Part shown: positions 33,509 through 37,999 of the stretch, piece by piece
Layout: the number at the start of each line of letters is the position of its first letter
Position numbering within the stretch: position 1 is the stretch's first letter
Position numbers and translations under genes: made by a program
Assembly (NCBI GenBank): GCA_017629515.1
Contig: JAGBXB010000127.1
Span: forward strand, 1-38,217
DNA: 38,217 bases
Direction: 5' to 3'
From: Lentisphaeria bacterium
GTDB taxonomy: Bacteria > Verrucomicrobiota > Lentisphaeria > Victivallales > UBA1829
Notes under the pieces: generated by a model
The model's database searches: none
What the model saw: the letters and a program-made list of their open reading frames with translations, nothing else
What the model was told of the DNA's origin: nothing

Positions 33509-33583
33509 TGCGGGGTAGAGCATTGGTAGCTCATCAGGCTCATAACCTGAAGGTAGTAGGTTCGATTCCTGCCCCCGCTACCA
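33509..33583 (+). tRNA. Initiator tRNA-fMet (anticodon CAT)
   Basis: A 75-nt cloverleaf: acceptor TGCGGGG/CCCCGCT, D stem GAGC/GCTC, anticodon stem TCAGG/CCTGA with loop CTCATAA (CAT at 33541-33543), T stem GTAGG/CCTGC with loop TTCGATT, A73 and an encoded CCA. Initiator hallmarks are a mismatched 1-72 pair, here T-T, and a purine11-pyrimidine24 pair (A-T). The three G-C pairs of the anticodon stem are relaxed to AGG/CCT. It is followed by a terminator at 33595. Confidence 0.92.
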
Positions 33584-33594
33584 ACGATTTTTAC

Positions 33595-33623
33595 AGGACT
33601 TGTTAACGCAAGTCCTTTTTTTA
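33595..33623 (+). terminator. Terminator after tRNA-fMet
   Basis: AGGACTTG (33595-33602), loop TTAACG, CAAGTCCT (33609-33616), then a run of T residues. It ends the tRNA transcript 12 bp after CCA. Confidence 0.9.
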
Positions 33624-33727
33624 CGCTCAAATTAAGGAAGTTGCAGCAGAAACGTCTTGGTTTTCCACGCTGCCTTTGTTGTTTTGAATGATCCTCTGTT
33701 AATGTCGAAAACCGGGAAATCTACCGC

Positions 33728-33771
33728 TTTTTGTGTTCAATCTGTGTGCAATCTGTGTGCAAAATGTGTGC
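33728..33771. repeat. 11-bp iterons near the tRNA (possible recombinase or regulator sites)
   Basis: Four tandem units of 11 bp: a divergent TTTTTGTGTTC, two identical AATCTGTGTGC and one AAAATGTGTGC, each one helical turn apart. Such face-aligned repeats are typical of cooperative protein binding by Xis-, Rep- or arm-type factors. The stretch from 33624 to 34063 holds no convincing gene, only these iterons, an inverted promoter-like pair and two hairpins. Confidence 0.65.
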
Positions 33772-33782
33772 AAAATTCCCGC

Positions 33783-33820
33783 CTTGACATTAAAATAACA
33801 CCTCTTAAAGAAAAGTCAAG
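33783..33820. promoter_or_regulatory. Face-to-face promoter-like elements in an inverted repeat
   Basis: CTTGAC (33783-33788) and GTCAAG (33815-33820) form an inverted repeat. Plus strand: TTGACA 33784, 16 bp, TAAAGA 33806. Minus strand: TTGACT (forward 33814-33819), 16 bp, TATTTT (forward 33792-33797). The two would exclude each other, as in a switch. This is suggestive only. Confidence 0.4.
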
Positions 33821-33890
33821 CAACTTTATTCACCTGACTCGCTACAACTGCTCCACCCGCAACATCTCACAATATATCAAAAGGTATTCC

Positions 33891-33924
33891 ATGCAGGGGA
33901 ACGCAACAACGGTTCCCCCTGCAT
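33891..33924 (+). other. Hairpin 1 with GCAACAACG loop
   Basis: A 12-bp stem (ATGCAGGGGAAC with its complement and one bulged C) closes a 9-nt loop GCAACAACG (33903-33911). The same loop recurs in hairpin 2, about 100 bp downstream, on a different stem. Confidence 0.75.
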
Positions 33925-33993
33925 TTAATCATATATTCACCTGCCATGACTTCCCAGGCTCCGATTGCAGCCGGAGAAGTCTATCTTTATTTC

Positions 33994-34026
33994 ATAACGG
34001 AGAGCGCAACAACGGCTCCCCGTTAT
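33994..34026 (+). other. Hairpin 2 with the identical GCAACAACG loop
   Basis: A 12-position stem (ATAACGGAGAGC against GCTCCCCGTTAT, one A-C mismatch) closes the same 9-nt loop (34006-34014). Near the loop, A-T in hairpin 1 is replaced by G-C in hairpin 2, a compensatory change. It could be part of a small structured RNA or a protein-binding pair. Confidence 0.75.
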
Positions 34027-34063
34027 ACCTTTTGACTAATCTCATGGATTAAATGGAACTATT

Positions 34064-34180
34064 ATGGAATTTTTAATTGAAATTCATCATTCAAGGAGTA
34101 TATTACAGGAGGTTCCGGATGGTCCGGTACCGTTAAAACAGGAGAAGCAGATTATTGACAGAATGGAGAAGCTGCATTAA
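34064..34180 (+). CDS. Possible 38-aa ORF of unknown function
   Basis: An open frame from ATG 34064 to TAA 34180, encoding a short charged peptide (MEFLIEIHHSRS at its start). There is no good ribosome binding site, and I recognise no family. It may be a gene fragment at the island edge or not translated at all. Confidence 0.25.
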   Translation: MEFLIEIHHSRSILQEVPDGPVPLKQEKQIIDRMEKLH

Positions 34181-34270
34181 AAATAAAATTAAAGATAGAT
34201 TGATTCGTGTCTTTTAGTTTGTGGGTAAGGAAACGCCAAATCATTATTACAACACAGAAACGAAAAGGAT

Positions 34271-34301
34271 GCGTCCGATATTATTCGGGCGTATTTTTAT
34301 T
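34271..34301 (+). terminator. Terminator upstream of the island operon
   Basis: CGTCCGA and TCGGGCG (one wobble pair) enclose TATTAT, and TATTTTTATTG follows. It would end transcripts entering from the 33.8-34.2 kb region before the TerB operon. Confidence 0.65.
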
Positions 34302-34319
34302 GTTTGTGTTGTCGGTATT

Positions 34320-34352
34320 GGCGTACCTCTTACCCGAGCTTTGATGTACGCC
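34320..34352 (+). promoter_or_regulatory. Operator-like inverted repeat before the TerB-like gene
   Basis: GGCGTAC (34320-34326) and GTACGCC (34346-34352) are perfect inverted 7-mers with centres 26 bp apart. They end 41 bp before ATG 34394. They could bind a dimeric regulator or form a long 5'-leader hairpin. Confidence 0.5.
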
Positions 34353-34393
34353 CTCTTTATTGGTCCGGATCTGTGTTGAAACGGAGAAACGAG

Positions 34394-35044
34394 ATGAAGA
34401 GTTTTTTTGACAAAGCTGTTGCGAAAATAAAGAAGGATGTTGTTGAAAACAAAGAAGACCTGAAAGAGAATTTGAAAACTGCCGGTTACATAGCCGGGGG
34501 AGTGGCTGCAATCTCTATTGCTCCTGTCGCGGCAGTAGGTATAGTTGGCGGTTTAGCAGTTAAACATTTTGTCGATAAGAAGAAGGCTCAAGATGATGCT
34601 GCCAATGCAGAAGTGGAGCAGCAAAAGGCAGAAATTAGTTTAAAATTCGAAGAGGCTAAAAAACAATTTATTGAGCTCTACTCTGCTTTTAATGATAATT
34701 GCAACGATGATGATGTGCGTGAAAATATGTTGTTTACGTTGGCGGCAATAGCAACAGCCACTGCCGGATATGATGGACATATTTCTGATGATGAAAAGTC
34801 CAAATTGGCAACTATCATACAATCCGCACAAGACTCCAATATGGCACAGAGACGAAAGGATAGAATCAATGATTTCCTCAATCATCCGCCCAAATTGCAA
34901 GAGGCCATTGAATCTATAAATGCCATTCCTGGGTGCGACAAGAATATATTCCGCAATTTGATAATTATGATAAGTTGCTGTGATGGTGAATATTCAGAGG
35001 AAGAGCGAGCAGTTTTGACCACCTGGGATACTCTAAACGCTTGA
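34394..35044 (+). CDS. TerB-like protein with N-terminal glycine-rich hydrophobic segment
   Basis: A 216-aa protein starting at ATG 34394 (GGAG seven bases upstream). Residues of about 1-30 are amphipathic and charged. Residues 30-58 (AGYIAGGVAAISIAPVAAVGIVGG) form a Gly/Ala-rich membrane-like segment, and a Lys-rich stretch follows. Residues 85-216 are helical and carry two acidic TerB-type motifs: D127-G-H-I-S-D-D-E134 and D197-G-E-Y-S-E-E-E204. TerB folds bind metal and are linked to tellurite resistance, stress and phage-resistance gene sets. It is first in a three-gene operon; the EEP gene starts 8 bp after its stop. Confidence 0.75.
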   Translation: MKSFFDKAVAKIKKDVVENKEDLKENLKTAGYIAGGVAAISIAPVAAVGIVGGLAVKHFVDKKKAQDDAANAEVEQQKAEISLKFEEAKKQFIELYSAFNDNCNDDDVRENMLFTLAAIATATAGYDGHISDDEKSKLATIIQSAQDSNMAQRRKDRINDFLNHPPKLQEAIESINAIPGCDKNIFRNLIIMISCCDGEYSEEERAVLTTWDTLNA

Positions 35045-35051
35045 GGATAAG

Positions 35052-36101
35052 ATGGATATCATTTTAGGTTCCTTTAATGTATTGAATCTTAATACCAAAG
35101 ATGACGAAAAGAGCAATTTCAAAGAAGACAAATGTCGTAAAATTGCTGACATCATACGTCATGAAGGATTTGATATTATTGCACTTCAGGAAATCCAAAC
35201 GGATGATGCCGTTTCGAGAATCATTCATTACCTGAATGGCAACGACAACGAATCTCCATATCAATATTGTCATTGCGGATCTTTATATCAGGAACTGAAT
35301 GATGCCGGAATATTAAACCGTAATGGAGCTAAATTTAAGAGTGATTACGGTTTTATTTGGAATACCGACAAAGTATACCTCTATGGGGATAAAGCTCTCT
35401 ATAAAGCGTTAGATGACATCGAAAAGAAGGAATGGGATTCATTCATCGAACATCTCATTGATATTCTGGTGGAAACTTACAAAAGCATGAGCAGTCAAAC
35501 CGGTTTGAAATCCGGACTTTTCGCAAGGTTGCCTCAAGGAGAAGCTTTGAGCAAATACCGTTCGACACTTCGCAATACACTGCATCAAACGTTGCGTCCG
35601 CCATTAATCGCCTGCTTCAGACCATCAGGTATGTTCGGTTCTTTACTTCATGAGATCAGGATTATCAATACGCATACCCAGTGGAGCAAGGGCAAAAGTG
35701 ATGAAAAGACTGCAAAGCAAATACGTATGGAAGAGATGAATTTTATCCAACGTACATTGCACAATAAGGTCAATGAATTGCGTACGGGATCTTTCAATTC
35801 AGTATATACATTTGTAGCAGGTGATTTTAATTTAAGTGCCGCTGAAATAGGCAATTCCATAGAAGGAATGATAACGGTTCAAAATGCTCCTTCCACATGT
35901 AAGTGGGATGCGGAACAAAACAGTATGACGTTTAAAAGTAATTATGACCATTTCGCCTATAATGAAGAGAGAATAGCGAATTTTGTCCATGACGGAGCTA
36001 AAACAATAGGCGTAGAAAATGATAATTTTACGTTAAATAAATCAAATAAAACAGTAACTGTTTCCGATCATATCCCGATTAAAATGAAAATCAGCTTTTA
36101 A
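35052..36101 (+). CDS. Endonuclease/exonuclease/phosphatase (DNase I-like) family protein
   Basis: A 349-aa EEP-fold enzyme with all expected catalytic positions: Asn9 in SFNVLN, Glu47 in LQEIQ, His208 in NTHTQW, Asp258 and Asn260 in GDFNL, and the closing S338-D339-H340. Between the second and third blocks is a helical insertion of about 80 residues (about 110-190) not usual in this family. It lacks a signal peptide. Substrates of the family include DNA, RNA and phospholipid or inositol phosphates; a nuclease is favoured because of the TerB partner and the island setting. GAGGA precedes the start, with seven bases between genes. Confidence 0.85.
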   Translation: MDIILGSFNVLNLNTKDDEKSNFKEDKCRKIADIIRHEGFDIIALQEIQTDDAVSRIIHYLNGNDNESPYQYCHCGSLYQELNDAGILNRNGAKFKSDYGFIWNTDKVYLYGDKALYKALDDIEKKEWDSFIEHLIDILVETYKSMSSQTGLKSGLFARLPQGEALSKYRSTLRNTLHQTLRPPLIACFRPSGMFGSLLHEIRIINTHTQWSKGKSDEKTAKQIRMEEMNFIQRTLHNKVNELRTGSFNSVYTFVAGDFNLSAAEIGNSIEGMITVQNAPSTCKWDAEQNSMTFKSNYDHFAYNEERIANFVHDGAKTIGVENDNFTLNKSNKTVTVSDHIPIKMKISF

Positions 36102-36115
36102 AACAGGAGTTTTCT

Positions 36116-37999
36116 ATGAATACAACAAACAATGAACAATTGAAAGCCGCTTATGCATTAAATATGTGCATGGTGTCATTGTCGCAAATCGTTGATTATA
36201 ATGATATAAATATTCTCAAACAGGAATACGATGCCATACTCAATAATTTGAATGTAGAGAATATTATCAAGGATGAAGCAATGCTTGAAGCATTGAAAAA
36301 GATTCTCGACACCTGCCATTTTTACATCCTTCATGAGAAAGATAAGGAGTTGTTGAAAAAGAAGCAAGCAGCCCGTATGAAAAGTGCTCTCACAAATGCC
36401 CTGGCAAATGGAGGTCGGGTAATTGCAATCTTCAGTAATCCTAATCCCTGGAGCATTGCAGCAACAGCAGGAATTATGCTGGGAGCTGCTGCAATAAGTT
36501 ATAAATCGGAGAAGAATAAAGCGTTGATGGAAAATGAAGCCGAGGCATGGGAACTGGAGAAAAGTGCCTTGGAACAACTTCATAATTTACGCAGAACTCT
36601 TTTTGAAACAGCTTGGAGACTTTCAGATCACTATAAGTTTCCGGATGAATTACGGTTGACCGAAAAGCAGATAACTATTTACAACAATGCGGTTGCAGAT
36701 CCCGATCCACAGAGTCGTTATATTCGTTTGGACTTGTTGAGGGATAAATTTCAAGCATATCCTTTATTTTGGTATTATCTTGCCAGAGCGGCTCTGGAGA
36801 CTTCGGAGCTTTATCGTAAATTAGGACCAGATGAAAAGGAACGCCGCATCAATCCCAGAAAGCCCAACAGTGGTATTTATAATTATTATCGTAATGAAGC
36901 CAAAACGGCACTGGATGAATTTGTCGCCAAACACAGTGAAGTTCAACTTTTGCGGGAAGATATAATTGCGGCCTCGGCCTATATCGATTCATCCCTGTTT
37001 TACGAAGATAATCCTGAAGAAATGAAGAGAAGAATCGACTATGCTCGCAAGATCGCCGGATTTGATTTGGAAATAATCCAAACTTGCTCATTTCGCTACT
37101 GCCAACTTATTAAGATGTTTGCCGACAAAGGACAAGCTGAACAGGCGATGGAATGTCGGCAGTCTGCAGAATACTGTCTTAAATTGTTGCTGCATGAAGA
37201 CTATAATGCCGATCTGAATGGAATGGCATTGAGTCAGATTTACAAAGAATCGAATGCGAAAGATGCAAAACTAAAATATGATCTGCTCAAAGATTGTATC
37301 GGACAAAAGACGCCTTTCGTTTATAATAATTTGCTTCCATGGGATGAGGATTGTTATAGGCAAGACCTGAAAGAATATCTTGACGGGAACCAATTATTCC
37401 ACTCCATAGGTCAATACTTTGAAGGCCGTATCCGATGCCTTTTGATTGATCTTTATCAGGCAATATACAAAAGCAGCAATCTTGATGATAATACTCCTCT
37501 GGTTGAATTGAAAGGGTCTGTTGAAGCAGAAAATTGGAAGTCGGATATTTGCGGTAAAATAATTATGCAGGATGTTGACTCGATATCTCCGGATATTCAA
37601 AAGATCAGGAAACTGTTGTGTTGTTCCCAGAAAGCAGAAGATGCAATCAATGCTTATCTTGAGCAAATAAAAGTATTTTTGGAATCTGCCAGCACAACTG
37701 AACGTCGCGGAAAATCCCTGTGGATGAAATCGTATCTTGTCAATTTTGAACGCAGTGAGTTGGATAAATGGCAGGAGAAACTCAATAAAGCCTTATACAA
37801 AGCTGTTTCAGAACTTGCTGTTGGAGTAACAAATCAGCTGCGTGATCAAGCCCCAGGAGAAAAAGAAGAATATATCCTTGATCTTGCAAGTTTTATAACA
37901 GCAGAAACTTTAAGAATGAAGGCTATTATACAAGATTTTACAATAGGTAAATTCAAATATCATAACTATACTCCGCCCAAAGGAATATTTACATTATAA
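36116..37999 (+). CDS. 627-aa helical protein of unknown family, third gene of the cassette
   Basis: Almost entirely alpha-helical by composition. Residues of about 1-95 form a charged helical N-domain. Residues 96-130 contain a Gly/Ala-rich hydrophobic hairpin (AATAGIMLGAAAISY) followed by Lys/Glu-rich helix. Residues of about 140-627 show TPR- or HEAT-like helical repetition with many Tyr, Leu and Glu but no nucleotide-binding or metal motif that I can see. AGGAG lies before the ATG, 14 bp after the EEP stop, so it is co-translated with it. It may be a membrane-anchored scaffold or sensor for the nuclease. That is inference; I do not recognise the family. Confidence 0.8.
   Translation: MNTTNNEQLKAAYALNMCMVSLSQIVDYNDINILKQEYDAILNNLNVENIIKDEAMLEALKKILDTCHFYILHEKDKELLKKKQAARMKSALTNALANGGRVIAIFSNPNPWSIAATAGIMLGAAAISYKSEKNKALMENEAEAWELEKSALEQLHNLRRTLFETAWRLSDHYKFPDELRLTEKQITIYNNAVADPDPQSRYIRLDLLRDKFQAYPLFWYYLARAALETSELYRKLGPDEKERRINPRKPNSGIYNYYRNEAKTALDEFVAKHSEVQLLREDIIAASAYIDSSLFYEDNPEEMKRRIDYARKIAGFDLEIIQTCSFRYCQLIKMFADKGQAEQAMECRQSAEYCLKLLLHEDYNADLNGMALSQIYKESNAKDAKLKYDLLKDCIGQKTPFVYNNLLPWDEDCYRQDLKEYLDGNQLFHSIGQYFEGRIRCLLIDLYQAIYKSSNLDDNTPLVELKGSVEAENWKSDICGKIIMQDVDSISPDIQKIRKLLCCSQKAEDAINAYLEQIKVFLESASTTERRGKSLWMKSYLVNFERSELDKWQEKLNKALYKAVSELAVGVTNQLRDQAPGEKEEYILDLASFITAETLRMKAIIQDFTIGKFKYHNYTPPKGIFTL

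Follow-up and report, generated by a model that had tools for sequence, protein, structure and literature searches.

What are two hairpins with different stems and one common 9-nt loop doing in a Lentisphaerae genome? The question is raised by positions 33891-34026 of the window, by which we mean the whole 38,217-nucleotide stretch of DNA analysed here, where the first-pass annotation had noted such a pair and had suggested selection on the structure of an RNA or of extruded DNA.

Three hairpins and two identical loops

Strong stems around a common 9-nt loop are present at both places on the plus strand. HP1 (33891-33924) reads ATGCAGGGGAAC-GCAACAACG-GTTCCCCCTGCAT, with 12 pairs, one bulged C and its loop at 33903-33911, and HP3 (33994-34026) reads ATAACGGAGAGC-GCAACAACG-GCTCCCCGTTAT, with 11 pairs, one A.C mismatch and its loop at 34006-34014. 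The stems had been given 12 positions each, a length that holds, but each has one flaw in the window; 12 perfect pairs are seen in relatives. The closing C-G pair and the A-T to G-C swap at the second pair are both as claimed, and between intact copies of HP1 and HP3 4 of the 12 pairs differ, every one of them compensated. Between the two lies a middle hairpin, HP2 (33948-33981, plus strand), with a TCTTT-rich stretch after its stem that makes it a possible terminator; it was absent from the earlier listing, as were four orthologous copies of the block described below. The window holds exactly two copies of GCAACAACG, a number reached or exceeded, with no stem required, in 4 of 100 shuffles, and the folding energy of the 171-nt hairpin region is -59.2 kcal/mol, where shuffles average -33.7 (z -7.2, 0/200).

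Two wider readings of the region were rejected: the outer stem (TCAAAAGGTAT/ATACCTTTTGA) of a candidate three-way junction is missing in G010 and G016, and a 131-aa open reading frame spanning the block (33657-34052) belongs to no family and is crossed by indels in relatives.

The block is found at five orthologous loci

The first-pass annotation had proposed a covariance-model search and a look at the proximity of copies to tRNA genes or integrases, and had let its case depend on the existence of further copies and on the constancy of their loops and stems. A DNA search of 149 related genomes recovered four further copies, in G016, G010, G086 and G060, all at orthologous places, and a covariance model of the block (R1) returned the same five loci as its sole strong matches. 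Together with the window (G000), these loci span two families and at least four genera of rumen Lentisphaerae, and the MAGs SIG77, SIG79, SIG84 and SIG93, which are among the block relatives, carry the public name Lentisphaerae. An Acido-Lenti-1 RNA match at 12-57 of the window (RF01687, 45.3 bits) is also consistent with a Lentisphaerae host.

Within the host genome the block is single-copy (a 186-nt DNA query recovers itself alone), and CGCAACAACGG occurs at two other places only, with no flanking stem of at least 7 found at either. Loop-plus-stem patterns run over 85,000 species genomes, a viral collection and 198 genomes of the class gave no additional homologous copy; in IMG/VR there were ten loop-motif matches, none with a stem of at least 7, and no match to the HP2 pattern, and a search by DNA for plasmid and phage relatives found none. 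Pattern matches in Pseudomonas, Nocardioides and elsewhere were not homologous, and most had no stem; actinobacterial matches with 9-11 pairs lay in one common sequence of a different kind, a match in G013 (L006) sat in unrelated sequence and one in G017 was terminator-like.

In an alignment of the five loci with 37 stem pairs (A4), paired cells amounted to 97.8%, against 95.0% in shuffles (0/500), and five of the 37 pairs had changed on both sides, against 1.4 in shuffles (0/500) and none in slid controls; nearly all of these double changes set G016 apart from the rest. The HP1 and HP3 loops are invariant at 18 of 18 positions in all ten copies, and in the linkers G016 diverges from the other loci by 23-31%. 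Stems that vary in a paired fashion around fixed loops, as had been proposed, are therefore seen across all five loci. Flaws occur in 4 of the ten HP1 and HP3 stems, namely the HP1 bulge and HP3 mismatch of the window, a single mismatch in HP1 of G060 and a 3-nt deletion in HP3 of G086. At the four other loci the expected constancy is thus complete for the loops, which never vary, and partial for the stems, two of the eight hairpins there having a flaw.

The block lies at one end of a tRNA-Met island

The copies adjoin a tRNA gene and are part of an integrase-type island, in line with the surroundings that had been suggested: every one of them lies at the left end of an island inserted into a tRNA-Met gene of the initiator type. 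In the window this target gene, called by ARAGORN, lies at 33509-33583 on the plus strand (CAT anticodon, initiator-like 1-72 mismatch), and is followed by a tRNA terminator with a stem and T7 (33595-33622, plus strand) that is conserved in the orthologous islands. Homology between islands begins exactly at the 5' end of the tRNA-Met gene, the 3' part of which comes from the island, and runs rightwards, the DNA upstream being dissimilar; it extends over 4.7 kb at 94% with G016 and stops at ~34183 in G060 and ~34362 in G010, with different DNA beyond these cargo junctions. The far ends are marked by displaced tRNA 3' fragments from about nt 26-32 on (G027, G028, G060, G127 and others), and in G027, G028, G032, G007 and G060 an integrase gene reading into the island stands ~65-100 bp from this fragment (attR). 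Homology that starts from the tRNA and a displaced 3' fragment at the far end, which characterise a tRNA-targeted island, are found across the related islands. No tyrosine integrase was seen in the window, the contig ending at 38217 before the far end of the island. The far end of G060, a hairpin carrier, has TGTGTGCAAAATTCCG beside attR and int, matching the arm-type repeats at the hairpin end (33732-33773), which connects the hairpin end with an integrase end of matching type. Judged from sequence, HP1-HP3 are a real, conserved and locus-specific block of the tRNA-Met island.

On the cargo side, a promoter-like sequence directed inward, toward the cargo (TTGAAA-16-TATATT, 34077-34104, plus strand), is largely conserved at the five loci. 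The cargo genes, all on the plus strand, encode a DUF533/TerB-like protein (34394-35044, ATG start inferred), a protein of the endonuclease/exonuclease/phosphatase fold (35052-36101) and a 627-aa protein of no family (36116-37999). Elsewhere in the order, islands at this tRNA gene have type IIG (G090) or type I (G114) restriction-modification, or satellite-like replication genes (G098).

Several side observations belong to this region. A leader that contains the inverted repeat GGCGTAC...GTACGCC and a terminator-like hairpin occurs at 34195-34362 of the window, once more in this genome (G000:C126:81638-81766) and at 2312-2437 of L088, ahead of different cargo in different islands. The interval from hairpins to cargo holds an apparent decayed coding remnant (34110-34180) ending ...KQEKQIIDRIEKLH*; a small hairpin at 34111-34131, in which G016 shows compensatory changes, overlaps this remnant. 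At L081, L084, L085 and L086 a second copy of the tRNA 3' end, of the CCAGCCCCCGCTACCA type, lies ~170 nt downstream of the tRNA behind a short insert; here a further element seems to have targeted the 3' end of this tRNA gene as well, so that the islands are stacked.

An inverted half tRNA and a putative outward promoter

Read leftwards, the hairpins are followed by an inverted half tRNA (C2), an outward promoter-like sequence (P*), arm-type repeats and the tRNA gene. C2 (33826-33863, minus strand) repeats the 5' half of the tRNA-Met gene in inverted orientation, as far as the anticodon loop, P* (TTGACT-16-TATTTT, 33792-33819, minus strand) points toward the tRNA and, in an excised circle, toward int, and the repeats (33732-33773, plus strand) are four copies of the integrase arm-type direct repeat TGTGTKCAA with 11-bp spacing. 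Promoter calls are consensus matches only, with 3 found against 2.2 expected by chance. On the minus strand of 14 islands the same module runs from C2 through 10-14 nt, TTGACTTT (present in 13 of the 14 islands inspected), 16-17 nt and a -10-like box to arm-type repeats, the sequences of which vary by island (TTGCACACA, TTGCGTACA, TTGCTTACA, TTGATTACA, TTGTTAG).

Across 14 loci with a full tRNA, C2 matches at 20-29 of 29 positions and lies 189-387 nt from the tRNA, mostly ~190-250 nt inside the island end; a fifteenth, in G060, has no tRNA on its contig. These loci are the window, L047-L050, L081, L082, L084, L090, L130, L131, L136, L137, L173 and L175, and the other tRNA-Met loci inspected reach at most 19 of 29. 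Where the local tRNA departs from consensus, C2 tracks the local tRNA (six loci); in the window it tracks a foreign one, which fits a recent transfer. On this comparison C2 is a real feature, and we found no literature match for inverted tRNA fragments at island ends.

HP1 starts 28 nt behind C2; from the end of HP3 to the inward promoter-like sequence it is 50 nt. Because the block sits between two divergent promoter-like sequences, transcription from either of them would not run through it. The first 200 nt behind C2 are enriched in strong hairpins: 4 of 11 de-duplicated islands have one there, compared with 9 of 147 control windows (rank test p 0.0005). Islands of genus g6 carry 2-4 copies of an unrelated hairpin, GCGACGGG-RATAG-CCCGTCGT, at the corresponding position, a hairpin that is absent elsewhere in the g6 genomes, and G114 and G098 have at this place different long stems with similar A-rich loops. 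No strong hairpin was found in the C2 islands L084, L090, L130 and L137, and such a hairpin is therefore not essential to the module. This recurrence of same-loop hairpins with unrelated sequence, four C2 islands without them notwithstanding, is what speaks most strongly for a function of the block.

Possible functions of the block

The architecture of the block and its homology can be read from the DNA; its function we infer. The hairpins probably serve the island as a control site or a structural one, and we favour a cis-acting DNA or insulator role over a role as RNA. The reading we put first, tentatively and at somewhat under an even chance, is that HP1, HP2 and HP3 are a cis-acting DNA element: extrudable palindromes in the interval between divergent promoters, recognised by their loops or shielding integrase control and cargo from each other. 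Divergent transcription from P* and the cargo promoter would leave this interval negatively supercoiled, and the palindromes could extrude there, or form on single-stranded DNA, so that fixed loops could be recognised on stems that matter by shape only. The hairpins would then keep the integrase switch apart from the cargo operon, be of use to the excised or transferred form, or do both.

A possible though less likely function is that of a transcription insulator, HP2 being an intrinsic terminator on the plus strand and HP1 and HP3 helping to keep transcription of the tRNA/int side and of the cargo from running into each other. The place of the block between divergent promoter-like sequences would suit this role, as would the recurrence of unrelated strong hairpins there and the sequence that follows HP2, TCTTTATTT or TCTTTTTTT. 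The combination of a GC-rich stem and a direct T-run that defines an intrinsic terminator is, however, partial in HP2 and absent in HP1 and HP3; the hairpins of g6, G098 and G114 also lack a proper T-run, while the adjacent tRNA terminator has its T7, and terminators do not need identical loops.

That the palindromes are passive, functionless duplicated hairpins kept perfect by template switching, we consider unlikely, but this alternative does bear on how covariation is read. Template switching at palindromes produces compensatory changes without selection, and loop inversion and arm homogenisation are among its products (PMC8794818, PMC8604942). In G060 the HP2 loop (L048 216-249) is the exact reverse complement of the HP2 loop at the other loci, a natural inversion of the template-switch type inside a conserved palindrome and the signature described in those papers. 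Since template switching can mimic it, the covariation of the block does not by itself prove selection, and more generally covariation among a handful of sequences is no proof of RNA where template switching operates. The persistence of flawed stems (HP1 and HP3 of the window, HP1 of G060, HP3 of G086) and the loss of the outer stem in G010 and G016 would also suit passive palindromes. Against this stand the HP1 and HP3 loops, constant in ten copies despite the drift of the linkers, and the enrichment of hairpins, some of them in several copies, at the corresponding position of unrelated island clades. The invariant loops appear to be a better functional argument than covariation, with few sequences behind it.

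The idea, considered in the first-pass annotation, that the block belongs to a structured non-coding or protein-binding RNA is more doubtful still. Covariation, fixed loops and the low fold energy would be expected of such an RNA, but there is no conserved promoter to transcribe the block, the flanking promoter-like sequences missing it; searched against Rfam 15 at the gathering score it gave no match, and the stem deviations show no G-U excess (1 of 5). An RNA product is thus not supported.

It is most improbable that the hairpins are the core recombination site of the island integrase: they adjoin the tRNA, the arm repeats and the inverted tRNA half, but at the right ends the crossover falls in the tRNA anticodon loop, between AAAAATAAGCC and CTCATAACC, ~350 bp from HP1, and the cargo junctions of G060 and G010 lie outside the hairpins. 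A type III toxin-antitoxin RNA was rejected, as the cargo changes while the hairpins remain and there are just two diverged repeats, 103 nt apart, and so was a retron-type RNA, no reverse transcriptase being seen.

The end module and comparison with known systems

The module around the hairpins is a more informative find than the hairpins themselves. Since int lies at the far end and reads inward, P* would drive its expression only once the island has been excised as a circle. An integrase that binds core and arm sites could, we infer, clamp its own promoter at a P* flanked by C2 and arm repeats. An undescribed end module, in which C2 as a core-site mimic and the arms flank a circle-activated P* that the integrase clamps, and in which the array of same-loop hairpins is an extruded or single-stranded DNA-structure site for the mobile stage, is in its entirety a rather unlikely proposal. 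If the module is real, DNA alone would tell which end carries the promoter, when the integrase is made and why an inverted half tRNA is retained; as the islands carry cargo, restriction-modification systems included, from one rumen bacterium to another, it would also mark their ends.

Single-strand DNA origins and transfer origins are multi-hairpin structures, and the block resembles them in having several stem-loops within ~140 nt of non-coding mobile-element DNA; it differs in that no replication or relaxase gene was seen in the sequenced part of the window island. REP-type palindromes are short and have common loops, as here, but the many genomic copies expected of REP or dispersed palindromic repeats were not found, the block being undispersed, with two copies at one genomic place.

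The tRNA islands of Islander (PMC4383910), mapped from split and restored tRNA genes, likewise have an intact tRNA at one end, a displaced 3' fragment at the other and a tyrosine integrase; they differ from the islands here, in which an inverted copy of the 5' half lies 190-390 bp inside the left end. By sequence, the islands here have the ICEclc-type layout of an outward promoter at one end and an inward-reading int at the other. In ICEclc, as summarised in PMC2704930 (citing Sentchilo et al. 2003), the outward promoter drives intB13 only once the element is circularised, and a state-dependent int promoter is described for ICEKp1 (PMC13023037). Both elements, in these accounts, resemble the present islands in being integrated at a tRNA gene, with an end promoter facing outward and an int at the opposite end that starts near att and is driven through attP in the circle. 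In contrast to ICEclc and ICEKp1 as described there, the predicted promoter here has an inverted tRNA 5' half on one side and arm-type repeats on the other, with a hairpin block behind.
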